From NCBI GenBank assembly GCA_019695095.1, contig JAIBAQ010000025.1, positions 1 to 46,579 of the forward strand: 46,579 nucleotides of DNA. Reading direction: 5' to 3'. The position numbers were made by a program, and so were the translations under genes. The first letter of the stretch is position 1. The number at the start of each line of letters is the position of its first letter. Of this stretch, positions 29,784 to 44,776 are shown piece by piece. The notes below the pieces were generated by a model. It did no database searches, had not been told where the DNA came from, and was given only the letters and a program-made list of their open reading frames with translations. The DNA comes from Candidatus Hydrogenedentota bacterium (lineage in GTDB: Bacteria; Hydrogenedentota; Hydrogenedentia; Hydrogenedentales; SLHB01).

Positions 29784-31169
29784 TCAGGATTGCTTACGCT
29801 TCCACGAAGCCGATATCTCTTCTAAGGTACGTCCTTTTGTCTCCGGCAAGACCCACAGGCCGAAGAAGAAAGAGAAAATGCAGACTACGGTAAATAACCA
29901 GAACGCGCCGCCGACAGAACCGGTCATGCGCGTTGAATAGCCCGTGATGATGGGAAACACCCACGTCCCGCTGAGAATGGTGAACCATAGAAACGCTGTC
30001 GTAATCGATACCGCTTTGGCGCGCAGACGCGTTGGGAAAATCTCTGACATCATCAGCCACGGCAGCGGTCCAAGAGCCAACCCGTGGGGAATGGTGCAAA
30101 GAATGATCACGAGCAACACAAGGCCACCGCTAAGGTGGAAGTGGAAGACGGCTCCGGCCAACGCGGTCACAATAGCCATAAGAACCGAAGCGAATAACCA
30201 CAGCGGACGCCGCCCCACGCGGTCGACCGTCCAACACGCAATCGCAGTGACAATGCCCATGAATCCATAGGTCACCGCAAACTGCAAGAATGCAATGGAG
30301 CGGTCCTGCAAGCCGGATGCTTCAAACAGCATGGGAATGTAACCACCCATGACGCTCCAACCGGTCCAATTGTTGAAGATCGCGAGCATGAGTCCGATGA
30401 AAAGGGCAAAGCGCATACCCGGAGCAAACAGGTCCGACCAACTGCCTGTGTCCTCTTGGAGCGATTCGCGAATGGCCGCCATTTCGGACTCCGCCGATGC
30501 AGGTCCGTCGACGCGCGTGAGGATGGCCTGGGCCTCCTCGTGACGGCCACGGCTCGCAAGCCAACGCGGGCTTTCAGGCAGCATCGCAAGCAGGACGATA
30601 AACACGGCGACGGGAAGCAGTTCCGATGCGAACATCCAACGCCAACACACGTCTTCAGGGGTGTATTTCACAATTAAGAAGGAGACAAAGGGCGCCGCAA
30701 CACTACCCACCACGATGGCGAGCTGGTACATAACCCCGAGTCCGCCGCGCATCCTCGGCGGCGCGAGTTCGGAAATATACATGGGCGAGGCCACGGAGCA
30801 GAGTCCAACGCCCACGCCGCCGACGATGCGAAAGACATTGAATGTAACGATATCATTCGGAATCGCGGTGAAGATGGACCCTATGCCCAACAACGCGCAC
30901 GCAACCATCATGGTCTTGTTTCGTCCAATCGCGTCGCACAACCACGAGCCGATGAACGGCCCGATGATGCAACCCAATGAAGCGCTTGCCGTGGCAAAAC
31001 CGAATCCCACTTCCGTGAGTTGGAACACCTCTTTCAAATAGAGATTGGCCCCGCAAACAATGGCCAGGTCGTATCCGAAGAGGAACCCTCCTACGGATGC
31101 GACAAACGCGACGGCAAATGCATACAGCTTGGACTCGCCGTTACCGGCGGCCTGCTTGCCTGGGCCCAT
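29784..31169 (-). CDS. MFS sugar porter
   Basis: A 461-residue 12-segment transporter of the sugar porter family. Family signatures are plain: FGYDLAIVCGA in helix 1, the DRVGRRPLW loop, GPLPWLMMSEIFPTRLRAKA after helix 10 and the C-terminal PETKGRTLEEI. GGAGGGAG precedes the ATG. Presumably a proton- or facilitated-diffusion importer for the substrate of the operon. Confidence 0.93.
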   Translation of the reverse strand: MGPGKQAAGNGESKLYAFAVAFVASVGGFLFGYDLAIVCGANLYLKEVFQLTEVGFGFATASASLGCIIGPFIGSWLCDAIGRNKTMMVACALLGIGSIFTAIPNDIVTFNVFRIVGGVGVGLCSVASPMYISELAPPRMRGGLGVMYQLAIVVGSVAAPFVSFLIVKYTPEDVCWRWMFASELLPVAVFIVLLAMLPESPRWLASRGRHEEAQAILTRVDGPASAESEMAAIRESLQEDTGSWSDLFAPGMRFALFIGLMLAIFNNWTGWSVMGGYIPMLFEASGLQDRSIAFLQFAVTYGFMGIVTAIACWTVDRVGRRPLWLFASVLMAIVTALAGAVFHFHLSGGLVLLVIILCTIPHGLALGPLPWLMMSEIFPTRLRAKAVSITTAFLWFTILSGTWVFPIITGYSTRMTGSVGGAFWLFTVVCIFSFFFGLWVLPETKGRTLEEISASWKRKQS

Positions 31170-31229
31170 GAGACTCCCTCCCCTCAGTAGTTCTCCAACG
31201 TCAACCGTTCATGCCCGTGCAGTGCTGAA

Positions 31230-32072
31230 TCAGATTCCCGGCAGGTATCCCGTTCCGAAACGAGCCGAAGACTCGTTGCGGAAATCGGAAATCAACGACA
31301 TCAACGAAGTGGTGCCTCCATCCGCGACAATGGTCTGCCCGACCACATACCCGGCATCTTCGGAGCACAGAAACACCGCCAATTTGGCGATATCCAACGG
31401 CACCCCCGAACGTCCCAACGGCACCTTTTCGGCGGCATCCTTCTTGGCGCCCACTTCGCTGAAGCCGGGTAGTACCTTGTAGTAGTTTTCGACCGTGACC
31501 CAGCCGGGTGCGATGGCATTGATTCGAATGCCTTTGTGCGCCAATTCGACGGCAAGCGCCCGCGTGTACGCAATGATTGCGCCCTTGGTGCCCGCGTATA
31601 CCGAGTGTTCCGGCGCACCCTGTACGCCGTGAATCGACGTGATGTTGCAGATGGCGCCGCCGCCGTGCTCCATCATGTCTTCAACGATGCGTTGCGTGAG
31701 GAAGAACTGTGCCCGGATATTCACGTGATACATCCGGTCGAATTGCTCTCGCGTGACCTTCAGAAAGGGTTTGTTAAAGGTGATGCCTGCGTTGTTCACG
31801 AGGCAATCCACACCCCCCAGAAACTCCAGCGCGGATTTACCCAGCGCTTCAACGTCATCCACGTTATCGAAGTCCGCCCGAAATGCCGCAGCCCTCCGCC
31901 CCATGGCGGCAATCTCTTCAACGGCGCTTTTCGCGCCGGCGTCGCTGTGCGCGTAGTGCAACACCACATCCGCACCTTGGCGCGCGAATTCCAGCGCGAT
32001 CTCGCGTCCGATTCCCGTGCCCGAACCGGATACCAGCGCCCGCTTCCCTGCCATCTTCATCGCAGCACTCAT
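31230..32072 (-). CDS. Short-chain dehydrogenase/reductase (3-oxoacyl reductase-like)
   Basis: A 280-residue SDR. Start at 32072 is chosen for the very strong AGGAGGAGGGGG directly upstream; longer readings cross into the LacI gene. SGSGTGIG (about 13-20) binds the cofactor, NNAGIT follows, and the catalytic Ser in NITSIHG and YAGTK are in standard spacing. A tail of about 20 residues (SDFRNESSARFGTGYLPG) goes beyond the usual C-terminus. Second of two SDRs in the operon. Confidence 0.92.
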   Translation of the reverse strand: MSAAMKMAGKRALVSGSGTGIGREIALEFARQGADVVLHYAHSDAGAKSAVEEIAAMGRRAAAFRADFDNVDDVEALGKSALEFLGGVDCLVNNAGITFNKPFLKVTREQFDRMYHVNIRAQFFLTQRIVEDMMEHGGGAICNITSIHGVQGAPEHSVYAGTKGAIIAYTRALAVELAHKGIRINAIAPGWVTVENYYKVLPGFSEVGAKKDAAEKVPLGRSGVPLDIAKLAVFLCSEDAGYVVGQTIVADGGTTSLMSLISDFRNESSARFGTGYLPGI

Positions 32073-32118
32073 GCCCCCTCCTCCTACCGTGATGTGTCGC
32101 CGGACAAATTCTCCCCGC

Positions 32119-33126
32119 TCATTCCAGCGGCGCAGTCGATTCGCGAACCACCAGTTCAACGCCCAGCTTCGTGGTTCCTTGAGGCACCTCTTTGCCTGCC
32201 AACATATCCAGAAGCGTGCGCACGCACAGATCGGCAATCTGCTTCGCCGGGAAACGAACCGTCGTCAACGGAACACGAAGCATATCGGTGCCAGGCATAT
32301 CTCCGTTCCCCACGAGCGAAATGTCTCGGGGAATCGACAGCCCCGCCGCGAATATCGCGCGCATCGCCCCGCGCGCCACCACGTCATGACGCGTGAGCAA
32401 TGCCGTCGGGCGATCCTTCGCCTTAAGCATGTCTGCCACACACGCTTCGGCGGCGGATTCACTGAAATCGACTTCCACAAAGAAGCGCCGGTCCAGCAGA
32501 ATTCCCGAACTGGAAAACGCGTCTTCCACGCCCCTCAATCGCTGCTTTCCAACCGTGGTAATCCGGGGAATACCCAGATAGCCAATTCGCCGATGCCCCA
32601 GATCGATCAAATGCTGAGCCGCCAGCCTCCCCGCTCCGTAGTTGTCCCCCGTGATCTGAGGAACGGAAACTCCGTCGATTTGGCTGTCGAGAATCACCAG
32701 CTTGGCGCCGGTTTCGATCAACTCTCGAAAAGCCTCGGGATCGGTCATCGCCCCAGGAACGGCGATGACGCCGTCCACGCGATTCTTCATAAGGCGATCG
32801 AGCACCGAGTCGTCTTTGCCCGTTTCGTTTTCGCTCATGAGCAGCAGCGTGGAATATCCGCCCGCGCGCAATCCGCGCTCCACCGCCTCGATACCCGTAT
32901 GTGACGCGTAGTAGATGCTGGGTTTTGCCAGCACGCCGACCAGGTTGGTCTTTCCATGGGTCAGGCTGCGGGCAATATAGTTGGGACGATATTTCATGGA
33001 TGTGGCGAGGGATTGAATGCGTTCCCTCGTTCCGATGGAAATGTCCGGCTTGCCTGAGAGCGCCCTCAATACCGTTGAGCGACTCACTCCAGCCACGCGC
33101 GCAATGTCATTGACCGTACACGCCAT
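32119..33126 (-). CDS. LacI/GalR-family transcriptional regulator
   Basis: A 335-residue DNA-binding sugar sensor. The helix-turn-helix (TVNDIARVAGVSRSTVLRAL, 4-23) is followed by the hinge (YRPNYIARSL) and a periplasmic-binding-protein-like sensor domain. ATG at 33126 has GAGGAAG close upstream. As second gene of the operon it probably autoregulates: a 14-bp dyad with central CG at the operon start point (34251-34264) is a candidate operator. The inducer is unknown. Confidence 0.94.
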   Translation of the reverse strand: MACTVNDIARVAGVSRSTVLRALSGKPDISIGTRERIQSLATSMKYRPNYIARSLTHGKTNLVGVLAKPSIYYASHTGIEAVERGLRAGGYSTLLLMSENETGKDDSVLDRLMKNRVDGVIAVPGAMTDPEAFRELIETGAKLVILDSQIDGVSVPQITGDNYGAGRLAAQHLIDLGHRRIGYLGIPRITTVGKQRLRGVEDAFSSSGILLDRRFFVEVDFSESAAEACVADMLKAKDRPTALLTRHDVVARGAMRAIFAAGLSIPRDISLVGNGDMPGTDMLRVPLTTVRFPAKQIADLCVRTLLDMLAGKEVPQGTTKLGVELVVRESTAPLE

Positions 33127-33149
33127 GAGCTTCCTCACACACGTTTTGG

Positions 33150-34136
33150 TTACGCACTACATACTCGAATCACGTTCTTATTCAGACAATCTTCGGGAAG
33201 TTCCCCCCGAAGCAATGCATCAAGATTGAGCGCTGCGCGGCGTTGCAGCTCGCGGCTTGCGCGTTGGCTGTACCACGCATAATGCCCCGTGGCAACCACA
33301 CGCGGATGCGCAAGCATCTCGTCTCGATTCGATTTGGGCGGTTCGTCTTCGAATACGTCGAGGCCCGCGGCAAAAACGCGGCCCGACGTAAGCGCCTCCG
33401 TCAGGGCCTCTTCATCCACGACGGGTCCTCGCGCGGTATTGATAAGAATCGCGTTGGGCCGCATGGCGCCCAGCGCTTTAGCGTCGATTAGATGATGCGT
33501 CTCGTCGGTGAGATTGCAGTGGAGACTTACGACGTCGCTAACGTCCAGGAGCCGCTCCAACGAGAATGACTCGACACCGAGCTCCGAGAAGCGCGTCGGC
33601 GGGATATACGGGTCGCACGCGACCACGCTTCCGAACAACGCCCGCGCCTTGGCGCACAGGGCGCCGCCGATACGGCCAAGACCGACTATGCCCAGCGTCA
33701 ACTCGTGCAACTCGGGCATGTGAAACGTTGGGGCGGCGGCGTAGTGCGGGCGCAAACCCGCCATGCCCGCGCGAAGGCCGCGAACGCAGGCGAAGATGAG
33801 TGCCAGCGCGTGATCCGATACGGAGTGATTGGCGTAGCCTTGAACGTTGCAGACGGGAATGCCCCGCGCGGTGACTGCGGCAAGGTCGATGTTGTCGTAA
33901 CCCACCCCGTACCGGACAATCGCTTTCAGGGTCGTCGCGATATCGAGAAAGGCGTCATTGACGTTCGTCCACCTGACCAGCAACCCGTCGGCCCCGTGGG
34001 CAAAGGCCGCTTTGCCAGCCCAGTCGTGCCGATCCCCCGGAAAGACGTCCAGGGAATAGCCCGAAGCCCCCAAAATGGCCTGCTCCTGGTCAAAGGAATC
34101 GTAGCCCGTATCTATAACCACCACGCGTTTGTGCAC
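33150..34136 (-). CDS. D-2-hydroxyacid dehydrogenase (second PGDH-like enzyme)
   Basis: A 328-residue NAD-dependent dehydrogenase and first gene of the big operon. GTG at 34136 is preferred: the frame extends to 34280, but that codon lies inside the -10 region of the promoter. The GxGxxG loop VGLGRIGG is intact; catalytic Arg in INTARGPVVDE, Glu in FEDEPP and His in TGHYAWYS. It differs from the dehydrogenase at 23649 and is not a recent duplicate. Probable role: reduction or oxidation of a sugar-acid-derived 2-oxo/2-hydroxy acid. Confidence 0.9.
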   Translation of the reverse strand: MHKRVVVIDTGYDSFDQEQAILGASGYSLDVFPGDRHDWAGKAAFAHGADGLLVRWTNVNDAFLDIATTLKAIVRYGVGYDNIDLAAVTARGIPVCNVQGYANHSVSDHALALIFACVRGLRAGMAGLRPHYAAAPTFHMPELHELTLGIVGLGRIGGALCAKARALFGSVVACDPYIPPTRFSELGVESFSLERLLDVSDVVSLHCNLTDETHHLIDAKALGAMRPNAILINTARGPVVDEEALTEALTSGRVFAAGLDVFEDEPPKSNRDEMLAHPRVVATGHYAWYSQRASRELQRRAALNLDALLRGELPEDCLNKNVIRVCSA

Positions 34137-34250
34137 GGTAAATGCCTTAATGCGCCGGTCTGCGGCACCCCGCCCCAGCCCCGATTCCAACCAGCCGCAC
34201 ATGTTGGCCGGGGGCCCGTAACCCGCCCAATTCCGTGCCGAACACGGTAC

Positions 34251-34264
34251 CGGACTCGTGTCCG
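34251..34264. promoter_or_regulatory. Candidate LacI-type operator over the operon start point
   Basis: CGGACTCGTGTCCG is a 14-bp dyad with central CG; six of seven symmetric base pairs match (only the pair flanking the centre fails). This is the geometry of LacI/GalR-family operators. It covers the predicted start (about 34259) of the promoter whose -10 ends at 34266, ideal for repression by the LacI protein encoded as the second gene. Confidence 0.45.
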
Positions 34265-34265
34265 A

Positions 34266-34294
34266 AGCATAGTCTAACAAGATGCGTTTGTCAA
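34266..34294 (-). promoter_or_regulatory. Sigma-70 promoter of the sixteen-gene operon
   Basis: On the minus strand: TTGACA (34294-34289, 6/6), 17 bp, TATGCT (34271-34266, 4/6). Predicted start near 34259, leaving a leader of about 120 nt with a small hairpin CCGTG/CACGG (34232-34246). It lies between the GH32 stop (34327) and the first operon gene. Confidence 0.75.
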
Positions 34295-34326
34295 GGGAGA
34301 CGCCTAACCTCTTTGGATACGCCGAG

Positions 34327-36459
34327 TTACTGCGTCCAAGCCGACCGCAGTTCGCGCACCGCCAGTGACTTGGCTTGGGCCTTGCCCTCCTTGGAGACTA
34401 CCTCCAAGGCCTGCTTTGACTCGTCGAAATGAAGACCCATAGGCATGTAGACCGCGCCGCGCTGTGCGAAGATTTCGATAGACATCCGATCGACGAGCAG
34501 GCGCAGTGAGAGTTCGCCGTTTTCGAGCTTTACGTTCGCGGACTTGTCGGCACAGGTCAGTTGCTCCTTGGCCACATCGTACTGGACAGGAATGCCACGA
34601 ACGATGAAACCTACCTCTTTCGCGTCGCCGGGAACAAGAACGGCCTCAATGTCGAAGCAGTCGCCCTGGACTCCTTCGAGCAAGTTCGCGGAAAGCGCAA
34701 CGTCTTTCCATTCCTTCTTGTTTGCGTAGAGCGACTCGATCTCGCGAACGGGCCACGCGCACATCCGCACGCCGTCAGACGTCGTACGAAGGGTCAGTTC
34801 GACGGGGAAATCCATCATTTGATTGAAGGGCATCGACTGGTCGCCGATGGTGCCCCAAGCAATCTGGATGCGGCGGCCATCCTCGACAGGGATGTTGTTA
34901 TAGGTCTGCGACGCGTAGAAGCAGTTGCCGAACTGGAAGGGCAGTATTTGTGTTTCGGGCGTGTAGGTCTTGCCGTCGAACGTGCCGATGTAGTACTCGC
35001 CTGACGCGCCGTAGAGCACCCATTTCTTGTTGTTGGCATCGCCGTCGACGGGCAGTTCGAAGAGTTCGGGGCACTCGTGGAAACACGTCAACTCGCTTTG
35101 CTGTGTCCACTGTTTCAAATCCGGCGAATTGAAGATGGCCATGCGCTTGTCGTCGAGATAGAGCACGATCACCCAGCAATTGCCCGGCGCATACCAAAAC
35201 GCTTTCGGGTCGCGGTTGCCGCCGTTGATATGCGCCTGCACCGGGTTGCCCGAATACTTGGTCCAGGAGCGGCCGCGGTCGTTGCTGTACGCGAGCGACT
35301 GCGTAAACGGTTGGTCTTCCGACCACCGGCCCGTTCCGCCTGCCGACGTGTAGACACACACAATCGGAGACTCGTCGCCAGTCTTGAATCCCGTCGTGTT
35401 GGCCTCATCAATGACGGCGGAACCAGAGAAGATGGTCCCAAGTTTATCGGGGTGAATGGCATCGCCTAACTCGGTCCAGTGCACAAGGTCCTTGCTGACC
35501 GCGTGACCCCACGTCATGTTTCCCCAGTTCCAACCAACGGGATTGTGCTGAAAGAACAGATGATACTCGCCCTTGTAGTAGACGAGTCCGTTCGGATCGT
35601 TGTTCCATCCGCGCTGTGGCGAGAAGTGGAATTGCGGACGGAGTCTCTCCTGGTACAGGTTTTCTCCGCCTATAAGCGATTCCGCGAGTGTGGCCTGTTT
35701 GAGGGCTGCGTCGGTCTCCAAACCGTCGGCCCACAGGGTCAGCGTATCGCCTTTGAACGCCGTCATGTCGATGGCTACCCAAAAGTCCGGAGTCGAATCG
35801 GTCAACTCGATGTCGTACTCGCGCAAAATCTCGTCACCGCGCAGAACGCGCAACAGCGATTTCGAAGCCCCATTCTTAATCGGCAGATTCAGAAAAGGCT
35901 TGTCGATCTGGATACTACGCCGCTGCTCGCTATTCATCGGTTCGTCCCCCAACACGATCTGATCCACGTTGATATGCCCCCAACCACCAGTACGCTTGTC
36001 TACGATTTGGATTGTGGCCTTCTTTCCGGCGAATTCGCGAACGTCCCACGACTGCCAACGGAGCCGTTCCGAACCGCCAGGCACATCGTTCGGACCTGTC
36101 GAGGTGCGAACTTGTTTACCGTCGATCAACAAGTCCATGCAGGTTTCGCCGGGGTACTTGCCGCCGCCGATAAGGAAGCTGATGCAGGGCTTGTCGATAA
36201 CGAACTCGGGAGAGGTAAGCGTGCCGGTAGCGCCGTCGCCGTTGTGGAAGGAATTCACGAGGGCTTTGCCTTTGAAACCGGTCACGTCCATCTGGCCCTG
36301 GAGCGTTCCGCGCGCCGGGTGCGTGCCGAAGGCGTCGCCGGTCACTTTCCACGCGCCGTAATCGGTGTCCTCAAAATCCGCCAGGACCGTCGAGTCCGCA
36401 AACGAAGGCAGACACGCCAGCACCCCAACCACCATCGCCCCAATCCATGCCCGAAACAT
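34327..36459 (-). CDS. Secreted GH32 fructan/sucrose hydrolase with N-terminal beta-sandwich
   Basis: A 710-residue glycoside hydrolase family 32 enzyme (levanase, inulinase or invertase). A signal peptide covers about residues 1-21. Residues about 25-172 form a carbohydrate-binding-like beta-sandwich. The five-bladed propeller follows with the nucleophile Asp288 in WNNDPNG (285-291), the transition-state RDP motif at 416-418, and acid/base Glu462 in ECPELF. The C-terminal module (about 580-710) is the GH32C beta-sandwich. GGGGAGGA precedes the ATG. It points to beta-fructan use, although the operon that follows is of the sugar-acid type. No terminator is visible before the operon promoter. 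Confidence 0.94.
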   Translation of the reverse strand: MFRAWIGAMVVGVLACLPSFADSTVLADFEDTDYGAWKVTGDAFGTHPARGTLQGQMDVTGFKGKALVNSFHNGDGATGTLTSPEFVIDKPCISFLIGGGKYPGETCMDLLIDGKQVRTSTGPNDVPGGSERLRWQSWDVREFAGKKATIQIVDKRTGGWGHINVDQIVLGDEPMNSEQRRSIQIDKPFLNLPIKNGASKSLLRVLRGDEILREYDIELTDSTPDFWVAIDMTAFKGDTLTLWADGLETDAALKQATLAESLIGGENLYQERLRPQFHFSPQRGWNNDPNGLVYYKGEYHLFFQHNPVGWNWGNMTWGHAVSKDLVHWTELGDAIHPDKLGTIFSGSAVIDEANTTGFKTGDESPIVCVYTSAGGTGRWSEDQPFTQSLAYSNDRGRSWTKYSGNPVQAHINGGNRDPKAFWYAPGNCWVIVLYLDDKRMAIFNSPDLKQWTQQSELTCFHECPELFELPVDGDANNKKWVLYGASGEYYIGTFDGKTYTPETQILPFQFGNCFYASQTYNNIPVEDGRRIQIAWGTIGDQSMPFNQMMDFPVELTLRTTSDGVRMCAWPVREIESLYANKKEWKDVALSANLLEGVQGDCFDIEAVLVPGDAKEVGFIVRGIPVQYDVAKEQLTCADKSANVKLENGELSLRLLVDRMSIEIFAQRGAVYMPMGLHFDESKQALEVVSKEGKAQAKSLAVRELRSAWTQ

Positions 36460-38122: not shown

Positions 38123-39013
38123 TTATATGGAGAAGAACAGGCCGACAGGCTTGCTGAATGGGCCTTCGTCGCCGGGATACTTCTGGAACGCGACGTGACC
38201 ATCCATATACAGGGCGTTGCCGCCACCGGGGACGTGGTTGTAATCGGCGATTTCGTTGGAGATGCGATCGCACATGACGAAATTCTCGCTCTGGGCGCTT
38301 GCCGATGCGGCAGGATTGTTGATGTCGCTGATCAGGAAACGTTCGACACCCTCGCGCAAGCGGTAGATGGTTGTGCCACCGCCGTTACCGACCACGGCGT
38401 TCAGGGCGACGACCGTGGGAACGCTGGTCAGGTCGAGATCCTGCTCGAGGTCGCCCCACATAGCTTCTGCCGAAACCCAGGTCGTGCTTGTAATATCATC
38501 GACCGTGAGGAACATTGCGGCAAATTGGGAACTCACACCAGGATATACGGCTGCCAGGGTGGGATCATTTGCGCCAATCTTGTCCAGCATGTAACCGATG
38601 TAGAAGTAGCTCTGAGTATCGCCTTCGGAGAAATCTGTGCAGGTCGTCGTGAAGCAATAGTTCCCGTTCGCATCCTTTAGATCGTCAACGCTCGCCTGAG
38701 CATCGGACGGACAAATGAGGATGTTGGGGTCGGTAAGGTATTCGGGATACACACCCATCGGGATGTATTTCGAATCCTTGCTCTGTCCATTTGACGAGTC
38801 CCAGTAGATAGTGGCGAATGGCCATTTCTCGCCTTTGGACTCGTTGGCGTACATCTTGAAAATCAGGCCCCATTGCTTCAAGTTGTTTGCGCAGCTTGCG
38901 CGGCGGGCGGCTTCGCGGGCGCGGGCCAGCGCCGGAAGCAGAATTGCCGCCAGGATACCGATGATGGCGATCACGACCAACAATTCGATGAGCGTGAAAC
39001 CTCTCTTCTTCAT
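38123..39013 (-). CDS. Prepilin-type N-terminal methylation protein with H-x-DG motif
   Basis: A 296-residue pseudopilin-like protein. [20 protein letters not shown] (residues 4-23) is a textbook type IV prepilin signal with cleavage before Phe5 and a Glu at mature position 5. The C-terminus [18 protein letters not shown] holds the H-x(10)-DG motif typical of the large paralogue families of Planctomycetes, Verrucomicrobia and Lentisphaerae. Start at 39013 is set by GGGAGA and the signal. It is a single-gene transcript with its own consensus promoter and terminator, suggesting high expression. Likely a surface or pseudopilus component; partner genes are not nearby. Confidence 0.93.
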
Positions 39014-39549
39014 GACATCTCCCTTTCTTTTCAATGATGACTCCGCAACCACAACGCATACTCAAGAGTGGAACGCCTTCAGCGCGACCGTCTCTTGAGA
39101 GGTCTGACTCGGAGGTCAATCGGTGAGTACCCCCAACCGGTTAGGGGATTTCGCCGGTATGACATCGTTGTCGTAACACATTTATACCAGATCGTCTGAA
39201 ATCTGTCAATACCGTCTCTGAGCAAGGTTTCTTATTCCTTATAACTAAACAAATCATTGTTGCATAATAATTTACGAATGGTTAGATTTGCGCGATCTTA
39301 GACGAAAAGTCTCCTCAAAACGCAAAAGTGCCTGGCATTGCCTGTCTATCGTTGTCTTTTTTTTGTTGGACATCCTTGTCGTGTCGGATTCCGTATTAAC
39401 GTCATCGTTTTGTATCACGGAATCGGTCGGTAGATAAGGGTTGCCGTATGCAATGAGGTCCTCCCGCTTGAACTTTTTTGTGATGTGGAACCACACTGTC
39501 TGGGGGGGCAACGGGTGCAACATGAGGTCGGTAAAGGGGAGACTAGCTG
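39014..39549. other. Intergenic region with prepilin promoter
   Basis: 536 bp between divergent genes. Besides the promoter at 39181-39209 it carries an 8-bp palindrome AACCGGTT inside CCCC/GGGG (39131-39147) in the leader of the prepilin transcript, an AT-rich block at 39230-39300, and a T9 run near 39357. No gene is supported in it. Confidence 0.6.
39181..39209 (-). promoter_or_regulatory. Near-consensus sigma-70 promoter of the prepilin-like gene
   Basis: Minus strand: TTGACA (39209-39204), exactly 17 bp, TATAAA (39186-39181): 11 of 12 consensus bases. Predicted start about 39174 and a leader of about 160 nt to the ATG at 39013, with the palindrome at 39131-39147 close to the start. Confidence 0.85.
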
Positions 39550-40089: not shown

Positions 40090-43000
40090 CTACGATTTAG
40101 ATGTAGAAAGATCGATATCCTGACTGACGGCCTGGCCTTCTTGGAGCGTGAAAGGGACTTCGTGCCAGTTGGGTTCATAGGGATTGTCTGAGTTCTCGCG
40201 GTAGACCATGAGCATGCTCTCGCCAGCCCATACGCGGTCAAAGTGGAAACTGCCGTTTACATCTGTTGTACCGCTCAGTTGCTCCGTGTAATCGGCGGAT
40301 GCGTGCACGAGTCTCACGTAGGTATTGGCGACGGGTTCCCCTTCATTGAGAATATGGCCGTCCAGAGAGCCCGTGCCGCGTGTGTACGTGAATTCCATCG
40401 AAAGTGAATCACCAGCCTTCAGTTCGAAGTTCTTTATGAGTCGATGAGACTCACCTCGATTGGGAAGCACGCACAGTTCGACGGGACCGGCTGAGAGTCC
40501 CACCAACCGGAACTTTCCTGACTTCGAGACGTTTTGACGCATACGCGGCAGCGTCCGGTTACCGGGGTAACGGAGGTCCACCACGAGATCCAGAATTGTT
40601 CCGTCTTGATGTACGATTCCGTCAATAGTGGATTGCGCGGGGAGGACGATACGATTCTGTCCAGTTAGCGCAGACTCGCCGACACCATATCCCGCTTGGT
40701 AGGCATAGAGGCGAGTGATGTCGATAGGCAGGCTATCCACCGTGAACCGGCCTTGCGCATCGGTGCGCGCGGCTGCCGCGCGGTCCATGCGATCGGCGGA
40801 CACATCCGAGACGTAATACACGTAGGCTCCGTCGATAGGTTCACCCGCTTCGTTCACGACGATACCAGAAACGCGTGGACTTGGTTTTAGGCGGAGTTCG
40901 ATTTCCGTGGGAGAACCTTCCCCTATATCGACGTATTGCCACACGGGGGCGTATCCCGGTGCCAATGCGACGACCGTAATTGTCTCTGATGAGACGTGGT
41001 CCTGCGAGAATGTACCGTCCACACTCTGATAGGGTTGCACACACGAAAACATCATCTCATTGAGAGTCTGCGACTGTCCGAGCAAGTACCCCAGTGAAAA
41101 GGCCTGAATCGGAGCCCCCGTGTCCTCGGCGACCACGCGGCCCTGAAGTTGGCCATGTCCTCGCAGGACAATTTCTATGCCGGTCGCGCCGGCATCGACA
41201 GTCTCTCGCGTTTGTGAGAAGCCTTCACGTTCGATTGAGACTTGATACTCGCGATCGTCGAGCCCTGTAATCCGGAATTTGCCTTGCGAGTCCGAGTATA
41301 CCGTTTCCGCGTTTGCCGCAATGCACGACACCCGCGCACCTACGACCGGCTGCTTGTTCTTGTCCACAACACGGCCTTCTATGGAAAGGCCGCCACTTTC
41401 GCCATACGTGATTTCGATGCCGGATCGGTTCTCACCGGGGAGCAGTTTCACCCGGAGGTATTCCTCGTTCGTGCTGAATCCGTTCGCAGATTGCGGTGTT
41501 ACGACTACGGCGAATTCCGTTGGGGGGAGATTGGCGAATCGGAACTGCCCTTTGGTGTCTGTGCTTGCGGATTCCTCTACGCCGAATACGCTTTCGTCTT
41601 TGCGCAGCAGGTACAACTGCGCCCCTTGTATGGGGTCACTGTTCCCGTCGATTACTCTGCCACTCAGCGACGCGCTCTTGGGTTGGTCGAGTTTCAAGAC
41701 GAGGTCGTTAACACCGTCCTTTCCCAAGACGATACTTTCTTGAAGAGTGCTTTCCATCGTTGCATTTCGCGCTTGAAGGCTGACGCGGTCCATAGAGGTG
41801 GGGGCGTACAGCAGGAATTTTCCGTCTGATTCCGATTGAGCAGTGATGGTATTGAAAGAGTTGGAATCCGCAGATCTTGCCGCCACCTTGGCCTCAGCGA
41901 CGGGGTTGCCCGATGTGTCCAGAACCGTTCCTGCCACGGGCAGGCCCTTATGGAGAATGAAGTCGATTCCAGTTGCAGGTTTGCCGTTTTGTACCGTCAC
42001 GCTGGTGCGAATTCGATCTTTGTCATCAGGGTAACGTTCTAACCCTCCCAGGGAGAGCATGTACTGGCCGTCAGGAAGAGGAGCCACTCGGTAAACGCCG
42101 TTTGCATCGCTGAGTATGTTTTGACCAATTGCGTCGCTATACATGGACTGATAGACGTAGACGTTGACCCCTTCAATGGCTTCCCCTGTGTCTGCATCGG
42201 TGATACGGCCCGTGATGCAGAAAGGCTGTGAAACCACGGTGCTCGCATCTGGCATCGCTGCTTTTGAATCCGCGGCGTCATTGCGAGGTTCTGCATCTGA
42301 GGATCTGTTGTTTTCCGCGCGCTTCGGTAGGGATGTATCCGTGGACTGGCTGGGTGCAACGTTTGCGCGCACCGCATTGGGTACGGAGTCGTTGTGGACA
42401 GTTGCCCAGTACCCCGCCCCGACTGCGGTGAGAACAAGCAGCGACGCGGCCAACTTAACGAAGGCACTGGAAGCGATGCCCGCGGCGAGCGGCGCGGTAA
42501 TGGTCCCCGAGGCTGCCAGCTTGCAGAGAGATCCCGCCAATTCAACCGGAGCGGCCTCCGCCGGATGGCTCAACACTGTGACCAAGACGGTTGCCGAAGT
42601 GAGTACTCCCTTCTTGCGCAGGGCGGCGCGAATCTGATTGACGCCTTTATCGACACGAAAACGAACGTTGGCCTCCGACATGTTTAGTTGCCGCGCCAAG
42701 TCTGCATGCGTGCGATTCTCCAAGAAGCGCCCGACCACGACAATGCGCACGTGTTCCGGCAATTCGATGATGGCTTCATCCACCGCGGACAGGATTTCCC
42801 TGTGCGACGCGTCGGAACTGGTCTCGGCAGGCGCGTCGTTGGCATAGCTGACTTCGCGCTTCCGGCGTCGGATATCGCTGCGTAAGCAGTCGATGCTGCG
42901 ATGAACGGCCACTTTGTGCAGCCATGCTCCGAGCGATACGCGCACCGACTCGCGGCTTTTCATGAGCGCGACGAAACACTCTTGTGCAACATCTTCCGCC

Positions 43001-43134
43001 AGTGATGGATCGCCCACAATACGCCTGCAACTGGCAACCACCATGCCAAGGTGCCGTTGTACCAATTCTGCAAACGCGTCCGCGTCGCGGTGACGTTGCC
43101 ATTGTTCAAGAAGTACGGCGTCCGACCTGTCCAT
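40090..43134 (-). CDS. ECF sigma factor fused to membrane segment and carboxypeptidase-like repeats
   Basis: A 1014-residue fusion. Residues about 8-88 are sigma-2 (AFAELVQRHLGMVVASCRRI ... AEDVAQECF), about 115-172 sigma-4 (LPEHVRIVVVGRFLENRTHA with HTH MSEANVRFRVDKG). Next come a hydrophobic stretch at 179-190, then a membrane helix at about 225-245 (VKLAASLLVLTAVGAGYWA). A Ser/Asp-rich linker leads to about eight carboxypeptidase-regulatory-like beta-sandwich repeats from 305 to 1000 (xxGRVxDxxGxPxxxAxV pattern). So a cytoplasmic sigma domain is tethered to a large extracytoplasmic arm. GGGGAGAG lies before the ATG. No separate anti-sigma gene is adjacent; the arm could sense the cell surface or polysaccharide. 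Confidence 0.93.
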   Translation of the reverse strand: MDRSDAVLLEQWQRHRDADAFAELVQRHLGMVVASCRRIVGDPSLAEDVAQECFVALMKSRESVRVSLGAWLHKVAVHRSIDCLRSDIRRRKREVSYANDAPAETSSDASHREILSAVDEAIIELPEHVRIVVVGRFLENRTHADLARQLNMSEANVRFRVDKGVNQIRAALRKKGVLTSATVLVTVLSHPAEAAPVELAGSLCKLAASGTITAPLAAGIASSAFVKLAASLLVLTAVGAGYWATVHNDSVPNAVRANVAPSQSTDTSLPKRAENNRSSDAEPRNDAADSKAAMPDASTVVSQPFCITGRITDADTGEAIEGVNVYVYQSMYSDAIGQNILSDANGVYRVAPLPDGQYMLSLGGLERYPDDKDRIRTSVTVQNGKPATGIDFILHKGLPVAGTVLDTSGNPVAEAKVAARSADSNSFNTITAQSESDGKFLLYAPTSMDRVSLQARNATMESTLQESIVLGKDGVNDLVLKLDQPKSASLSGRVIDGNSDPIQGAQLYLLRKDESVFGVEESASTDTKGQFRFANLPPTEFAVVVTPQSANGFSTNEEYLRVKLLPGENRSGIEITYGESGGLSIEGRVVDKNKQPVVGARVSCIAANAETVYSDSQGKFRITGLDDREYQVSIEREGFSQTRETVDAGATGIEIVLRGHGQLQGRVVAEDTGAPIQAFSLGYLLGQSQTLNEMMFSCVQPYQSVDGTFSQDHVSSETITVVALAPGYAPVWQYVDIGEGSPTEIELRLKPSPRVSGIVVNEAGEPIDGAYVYYVSDVSADRMDRAAAARTDAQGRFTVDSLPIDITRLYAYQAGYGVGESALTGQNRIVLPAQSTIDGIVHQDGTILDLVVDLRYPGNRTLPRMRQNVSKSGKFRLVGLSAGPVELCVLPNRGESHRLIKNFELKAGDSLSMEFTYTRGTGSLDGHILNEGEPVANTYVRLVHASADYTEQLSGTTDVNGSFHFDRVWAGESMLMVYRENSDNPYEPNWHEVPFTLQEGQAVSQDIDLSTSKS

Positions 43135-43242
43135 TAGTAGCTCTCCCCATGCTCTGCATTATTCAGTTCGCATTACAGTCGGCACAACCCGGGAAAACCG
43201 CAATGGGGAATGCGACGGGCGCAATAGACGACGTGCGGACGG

Positions 43243-44604
43243 TCACGGCATGGGGTCGAGGGGAGTCGAAAAAGCGTGCAGCCATTCCTCAAGGTTGGTG
43301 TAGCCGTCGGAGTCATCATCGGCATTCGGATTCGCGGGCGGGGACAGCGTGCGGCTAGCAGGTGTGGTTGGGGGCAAGCCGCCCACGTCAGTTGGGCTGT
43401 CGATGATTCGCCCCATACCGTCACTTACATCTTTCACAACGCGGGCATCAACACTGTCGCGGTCTGTAGGCCGCGCTCCCGCATGTTCCAGGACCCAACT
43501 TGTGACCGCGTTCGTGGGTTGGAGTGTTAGCGGGGATAGTAAAACGGGAATGGCGTCGTCATTTCCCAGCGGAGCAACAGGTGAGAGGGGGCCTGATTTG
43601 CGCACGGCGTTGTCGCGGGCATATACGACCGTGCCCGGCTTTGCGGAAAGGAGGAGGTTAATTATCCCCATGCCGGGATTAGAGTCCTTACCTCGGACCA
43701 GGACATTGCCGATGATGGTGGCCATCGATACTCCCGAGTTCTCGGGATCGCTGAGGTGTATCGCGAAGCGTTTTGGGTTGAATATGAGGTTGTTTGCAAT
43801 CAGGGCGCTGACATCGCCCTTGATCAGCGGGTTACGCTCCGTGTTGTGGGCAAAGAGGTTCCCAATGGCTGCAATTCGCCGGCTGTGATCGCCGATGAGC
43901 ATCCCTTTCGAGTGTTCCCCTTCGGGGTGGAGGGAATGCGAGAGACCCTCGGAGATGATGCAGTGTCGAAATGTGACATCGTGGACGCCGTGATACCACG
44001 TGCTAACGTTTTCGTCGGTGGCCCAGCTCAGCGAACAATGGTCAACCACAACGTTGAAGACTTCCGGCGTTCCCTCGGGCGCGCCTATCAATCCAAGGGC
44101 ATCCCGTTGGTCGCCCGCTTGACTATCCGGATTGTCGCCGACACGGATGCGAAGGTGTTGCATCAAGACGTCGTGTGTCTGGACGATGAGACCCGCCCCA
44201 GACAGCGTGATTCCGGGCGACGGCGCCGTCTGTCCCGAGATGGTTGCGAATGGCTCTCGTATGACGAGCGGAGAATCAAGTTCGATGATTCCCGACACCT
44301 CGAAAATGACCGCACGCGGGCCTGCATAATCAAGAGCTTCTCGTAGCGAGCCGGGGCCATCGGGAGCGAGCGTGGTGACACGGATAAGCAGGCCGCCGCG
44401 TCCCGCCGGAGTGGTCGCGCCGAAGCCTTCTGCGCCGGGGAAGACGGGTAGGTCTTTGGAATAGTCGCGAACGTCGTCGAACGGCGCTTGCCCGTACTCG
44501 CTTGGTGGACACGCAGAGGTTACTGCCAAGAGCGCCAGTCCTAAAGCGAACTCACGAAGACGGCGACGCGGTCTGTGGTGGGCTTCTGTGGTCCAACGAT
44601 CCAT
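43243..44604 (-). CDS. Pectate-lyase-like right-handed beta-helix protein
   Basis: A 453-residue exported polysaccharide lyase-type protein. Start at 44604 is set by AGGGG 8 nt upstream. The basic N-region and helix (FALGLALLAVTSAC) give a signal peptide, perhaps a lipoprotein, though the lipobox TSAC is imperfect. FPGAEGFGA (about 55-63) and VVDHCSLSWATDENVS are the family-1 pectate lyase hallmarks. The C-terminus NADDDSDGYTNLEEWL is a calcium-binding type-3-like or dockerin-like repeat. It stands 108 bp before the sigma-fusion gene on the same strand and may be co-transcribed with it. Confidence 0.9.
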   Translation of the reverse strand: MDRWTTEAHHRPRRRLREFALGLALLAVTSACPPSEYGQAPFDDVRDYSKDLPVFPGAEGFGATTPAGRGGLLIRVTTLAPDGPGSLREALDYAGPRAVIFEVSGIIELDSPLVIREPFATISGQTAPSPGITLSGAGLIVQTHDVLMQHLRIRVGDNPDSQAGDQRDALGLIGAPEGTPEVFNVVVDHCSLSWATDENVSTWYHGVHDVTFRHCIISEGLSHSLHPEGEHSKGMLIGDHSRRIAAIGNLFAHNTERNPLIKGDVSALIANNLIFNPKRFAIHLSDPENSGVSMATIIGNVLVRGKDSNPGMGIINLLLSAKPGTVVYARDNAVRKSGPLSPVAPLGNDDAIPVLLSPLTLQPTNAVTSWVLEHAGARPTDRDSVDARVVKDVSDGMGRIIDSPTDVGGLPPTTPASRTLSPPANPNADDDSDGYTNLEEWLHAFSTPLDPMP

Positions 44605-44776
44605 GCGACGACCCCTGTCCAAGTACTCTCGACCGCGCACGCCATCAAGGGGATACGCCGCCAATCGCGATTGCGTATTCTACGCATCCGGAGACGACAA
44701 ACGCGACTAGAGGGCTATATCACTTCATGAAATGTCGGAAGGGTTCTGAGTCGAAACTGTAGAACGCGAAAATGCG

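Follow-up and report, generated by a model that had tools for sequence, protein, structure and literature searches.

The locus analyzed here raises the question of whether one bacterial polypeptide could serve both as a receptor and as a transcription initiator. In the window, that is, the whole stretch of 46,579 nucleotides of contig JAIBAQ010000025.1 from a Candidatus Hydrogenedentota bacterium, a gene at 40090..43134 on the minus strand encodes a predicted tethered ECF sigma factor of 1014 aa, as indicated by its ATG start, Pfam and NCBIfam matches, and full-length relatives. A putative ribosome site, GGGGAGAG, lies immediately 5' of the ATG. The earlier note had placed sigma2 and sigma4 domains, a membrane helix, and about eight repeats in this one chain, and Pfam, hydropathy, and AlphaFold2 agree on that layout.

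The sigma2/sigma4 part occupies residues 1-175. Region 2 (residues ~24-86; 42874..43065, minus strand) is recognized by Pfam PF04542 (Sigma70_r2 at residues 24-86, E 1.3e-13, above the curated cut-off), is modeled by AlphaFold2 with a pLDDT mostly >90, and superposes on region 2 of E. coli sigmaE with an rmsd of 1.4-1.8 in Foldseek. Region 4 (residues ~117-161; 42652..42786, minus strand) is recognized by Pfam PF08281 (Sigma70_r4_2 at residues 117-161, E 5e-8, also above the curated cut-off) and has a high pLDDT. The presence of sigma2 and sigma4 with sigma3 absent is the layout of ECF (sigma-70 group 4) factors; the NCBIfam sigma70-ECF model TIGR02937 scores 73.8 bits against a curated cut-off of 42.9, and the predicted sigma2/sigma4 fold resembles that of ECF sigmas in RNA polymerase and sigma/anti-sigma structures (Foldseek). 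We infer from the sequence that residues 1-175 would have ECF sigma factor activity.

Four further segments follow on the same minus strand, namely a conserved juxtamembrane segment (residues 176-210; 42505..42609), a single TM helix (residues ~221-246; 42397..42474), a disordered stalk with a pLDDT <50 (residues 247-303; 42226..42396), and an arm of about eight CarboxypepD_reg-type (CpD) beta-sandwich domains (residues 305-1014; 40093..42222). The TM helix is supported by hydropathy, which finds one hydrophobic segment at residues 223-243, by an approximate insertion score, and by both models, AlphaFold2 placing the helix at residues 221-246. The stalk is among the fastest-changing segments, with 12-27% identity between orthologs. 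The arm is matched by Pfam PF13620 in seven stretches (E 3.7e-68), and residues 305-1004 are modeled as all beta with a pLDDT mostly of 80-96; the division into eight domains comes from our own segmentation, and the repeat HMM matches seven of the eight. A sequence search of the PDB returned no relatives of the arm. Its beta-sandwich repeats are like those of other CarboxypepD_reg proteins, a type found across many proteins rather than being peculiar to sigma factors. Pfam detects neither a WD40 domain nor a carbohydrate-binding module in the protein, the only extension families being CpD/beta-sandwich.

The fusion is real, since the nearest paralog in the same genome (C165) is 55% identical across its entire length and relatives in other genera are 34-46% identical across theirs; an assembly chimera, a chance reading, or a frameshift fusion is thereby ruled out. 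The genome holds 39 sigma-r2 matches, ten of them within frames of 722-1168 aa, most of which combine sigma, TM, and CpD repeats, giving about eight such paralogs. A further long sigma gene, at L002 8380-10548(-), encodes 722 aa with a TM and four CpD repeats, and has a DUF1559-type prepilin-like gene (L002 10827-11750(-)) before it; a similar prepilin-like gene lies in the window at 38123-39052(-), a resemblance that is possibly due to chance. Of 68 Hydrogenedentota genomes, 38 gave matches in a profile search with the sigma, juxtamembrane, and TM module, with a maximum of 15 copies in one, and the family is lineage-wide. The matches sum to at least about 170, which may be a lower bound since scoring was limited to 38 candidates per genome, while other ECFs may account for the weakest of them.

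Relatives in Planctomycetota and Armatimonadota retain the sigma part, the juxtamembrane motif, and the TM, and differ in their arms, which are ankyrin, GyrI-like, or of no type known to Pfam. Planctomycetota members with this module include L049 2042-3826 and L077 4147-5541, which carry GyrI-like (Cass2) or ankyrin arms. Another type of arm, ending in PSDPFTG..Y...YSAG and common to several genera, was seen behind the sigma-TM module at L007 4656-6830(-) and L039 4424-6577(+); Pfam matches to the L039 copy are confined to its sigma part. The earlier note had set the protein in the context of Planctomycetes, which was off the mark in that the named relatives closest to it are MAGs of Candidatus Hydrogenedentota, although planctomycete relatives do exist. 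Our literature searches found neither sigma factors with CpD arms nor Hydrogenedentota sigma factors, and the protein appears to be one member of an extensive family of one-piece sensor-switches that has yet to be described.

How might such a sigma factor be controlled? Among about 60 relatives, residues 180-210 fit the consensus LxxLLxxxAEAAPxxLxxxLGKLALAG, in which P196, L199, L203, K205, and G210 are well kept, while the A/G/S/T-rich spacer (residues 211-222) and the TM sequence are variable. Pfam matched no zinc-finger family and no FecR family anywhere in the protein at E<=1, and a fused anti-sigma domain of either kind was rejected. Residues 176-222 contain a single cysteine, C204, so the segment is not a zinc finger. 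AlphaFold models it as two short helices of low pLDDT that are not docked on the sigma part, and because of this low-confidence packing no surface for inhibition in cis is predicted. The EAAP juxtamembrane motif may stand here in place of an anti-sigma domain.

A separate anti-sigma factor of the adjacent zf-HC2 type, the one family covered by our search, is likewise absent. The genome has eight zf-HC2 matches, seven of which have a short ECF gene no more than about 0.6 kb away; counted by ECF, zf-HC2 stands beside 7 of 29 short ECFs and 0 of 10 long ones, a contrast that rests on small numbers. In 14 relatives, no zf-HC2 match lies <4 kb from the tethered-module matches listed, the nearest being a weak match 4.4 kb off. 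The earlier suggestion that the protein works with no separate anti-sigma factor thus gains support from the sequence. Nor did the neighborhoods of six relatives (three of them on short contigs or truncated) and of C165 reveal a conserved partner gene; the only non-sigma gene that they share with the window is one short ORF match near C165.

The position of the arm depends on the topology. By the approximate insertion score, which is an approximate version of the Hessa scale, 76 of 79 relatives have a single TM, and that of the 1014-aa protein itself is marginal. Cysteine makes up 0.57% of the arms and 1.58% of the sigma part. These two observations, together with a sigma part that is cytoplasmic by function, argue that the beta-sandwich arm would lie outside the cell membrane. 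A two-TM hairpin, in which the arm would stay cytoplasmic, is disfavored by the insertion score for nearly all members. The charge statistics are neutral here, since the mean number of K+R flanking the TM is 1.4 on the sigma side versus 1.8 on the arm side and the positive-inside rule does not discriminate. GyrI-like and ankyrin domains are usually cytoplasmic, and the topology may differ in those planctomycete relatives that carry them.

Proteins of this kind, ECFs fused to a TM and exported domains, are known, with ECF52 and IutY the closest characterized examples, and this one has no zinc-finger anti-sigma domain. In the case of ECF52, SCO4117 of Streptomyces consists of sigma, a zinc finger, a TM, a Pro-rich region, and a carbohydrate module; its release by proteolysis has been proposed, and the group is said to be limited to Actinobacteria (PMC5826349). 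The 1014-aa protein shares with ECF52 the order of ECF sigma, TM helix, and long C-terminal arm bearing a domain of a ligand-binding type (exported in ECF52, and predicted to be so here, where the charge statistics do not settle the side), but it has neither the zf-HC2 anti-sigma-type domain nor the carbohydrate-binding module, and instead presents the EAAP motif, CpD repeats, and a Hydrogenedentota host. IutY (ECF243) of Pseudomonas putida is a sigma fused to a membrane-spanning C-terminal regulatory part and is activated by Prc/RseP cleavage (PMC8999054). The single chain of sigma and membrane-spanning C-terminal part is alike in the two proteins; however, the IutY extension is the membrane-bound anti-sigma of a cell-surface signaling system, whereas no FecR-like part exists here. 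ECF57 and the extended planctomycete ECFs also have large C-terminal extensions, of the WD40 type in ECF57 in contrast to the CpD repeats here, and planctomycete ECFs were found in detergent-soluble fractions of Tuwongella (PMC8567305); the planctomycete members that we found have the same juxtamembrane-TM module with other arms. The protein lacks the defining features of ECF52, ECF57, and ECF243 in its sequence, yet its mode of action is probably that of a fused TM ECF.

The DNA upstream of the gene carries a candidate promoter element, TTGCGGTTTTCCCGGGTTGTGCCGAC, at 43178..43203 on the minus strand, 43 nt before the ATG, which contains the GTGCCGAC box and is conserved upstream of orthologs. 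TTGCGnTTTT-N8-GTGCyGAC is common to the upstream DNA of this gene and of its C165 paralog, and the general form, TTGCGnTTTy-N8/9-GTGyCGAC, is intergenic and bipartite and stands at a near-constant distance in orthologs of at least four genera. A bipartite model scored 660 on 66 family upstream regions versus 517 +/- 16 (maximum 551) on dinucleotide shuffles run from the same starting sequences; the seeds were taken from the real data, which biases this score. Independent support comes from the positions of the best sites, which cluster 29-54 nt 5' of the ATG. The element is also gene-specific. In the 6.8-Mb genome, the 26-base pattern has two exact, no one-mismatch, and ten two-mismatch occurrences, against five in all for the reversed control, and both exact copies precede sigma genes, namely the window gene and C165. 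A looser exact pattern has nine matches in the 68 genomes versus two for the reversed control; five lie just 5' of the window gene, its paralog, and three orthologs (G019, G020, and G024), and the remaining four fall within coding frames. A wider regulon was rejected given ten two-mismatch sites versus five in the control, the one site checked (C252) lying in a coding frame rather than before a gene, and the element revealed no regulon in the genome beyond the sigma gene itself. A scan for sigma-70-type promoters upstream of the gene returned nothing. Near-constant spacing and near-uniqueness in the genome are the pattern expected of ECF autoregulation, and the element fits autoregulation with a very narrow target set, although another regulator could use the site. 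As a separate observation, GTAGAA and TAGAAT occur in 14 and 13 family upstream regions versus 1.4 and 1.1 expected, mostly 25-60 nt before the ATG, and are absent from the group of the window gene, which has GATAAT-like sequence instead.

We favor, with reasonable though not high confidence, a one-component transmembrane sigma factor that is auto-induced and is released or relieved when its arm senses a signal. The sigma2-sigma4 part would be in the cytoplasm, held to the inner membrane by one TM helix behind the juxtamembrane segment, and the arm of about eight domains would project outward on the disordered stalk and bind a ligand or a cell-envelope partner. The tethered sigma would be relieved once the arm or stalk changes. 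Two successive cuts, first in the stalk and then within the membrane, are the most likely route, in line with IutY and with the proposal for ECF52. Once free, the sigma would join RNA polymerase and, acting at the conserved upstream element, raise expression of the gene that encodes it. The outside position of the arm, ligand binding, cleavage, sigma activity, and the use of the element as the protein's own target are predictions. M50 site-2 proteases are present but universal; no protease site was identified in the tethered protein.

The arm may instead be structural, an anchor that ties the sigma to another envelope protein, the S-layer, or the cell wall, and what it reports would be the integrity or stretch of the envelope and not a soluble ligand. 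Foldseek matches of the arm include bacterial beta-sandwich strings of the pilin and SdrD adhesive type, CpD repeats are present in other long frames of the genome, and the number of repeats ranges from 3 to 10 among relatives, all of which suit this role. We nevertheless hold it to be unlikely, as repeats R3 and R6 are better conserved between orthologs than the remaining repeats, a pattern that points to specific binding surfaces more than to spacers and makes these two the first candidates for a binding site.

Somewhat less probable still is a tethered sigma that works with no proteolysis, the intact protein recruiting RNA polymerase at the membrane while the arm changes only its conformation or clustering. 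The anatomy would be the same, no linked protease or protease site was found, and a varying spacer at residues 211-222 beside a conserved juxtamembrane motif is expected of a signal-transmitting element; but it is cleavage that activates IutY, the characterized fused TM sigma (PMC8999054), and a long disordered stalk suits cleavage.

Polysaccharide sensing had been guessed in the earlier note from a neighboring gene, a pectate-lyase homolog (match 9buj, E 6.3e-29; unmatched by Pfam) directly upstream on the same strand (43243-44664, minus strand), and a GH32 levanase gene lies about 4 kb off. That the sigma factor senses pectin or plant polysaccharide in partnership with this lyase is nevertheless very improbable. 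None of the orthologs examined, nor the closest paralog, has the lyase gene next to it, and the conserved promoter-like element sits between the two genes, the lyase gene ending about 40 nt before it, with no second exact copy before the lyase gene in this genome. A pectate-lyase operon was rejected because the linkage is not conserved, and the linkage is no evidence for pectin sensing. Elsewhere in the window, 30001-36459(-) looks like a sugar-use cluster, in which the GH32 gene is joined by what, on inspection by eye, are an MFS sugar transporter and a LacI-type regulator.

That the sigma part is degenerate, a sigma-like anchor on a mainly exported or adhesive protein, is scarcely credible, for while no member found has known experimental activity, ortholog identity peaks in sigma2 (51-82%) and sigma4 (48-75%) and the curated ECF cut-off is passed.

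More tentatively, and at somewhat less than even confidence, the one-component transmembrane sigma factor may represent a modular receptor class, in which a self-inducing sigma-juxtamembrane-TM cassette, present in up to 15 copies per genome in Hydrogenedentota and also in Planctomycetota and Armatimonadota, would carry interchangeable exported arms and need no anti-sigma factor, the EAAP motif taking that role. If true, many uncultured bacteria would sense the outside with single proteins, and ligand binding to one chain could be traced directly to one promoter, for which the gene-specific upstream element offers a ready reporter in a laboratory host. That different arms sit on a single cassette points to a way of making new sensors, and the family would give a readable signaling repertoire to a phylum with little cultured biology.
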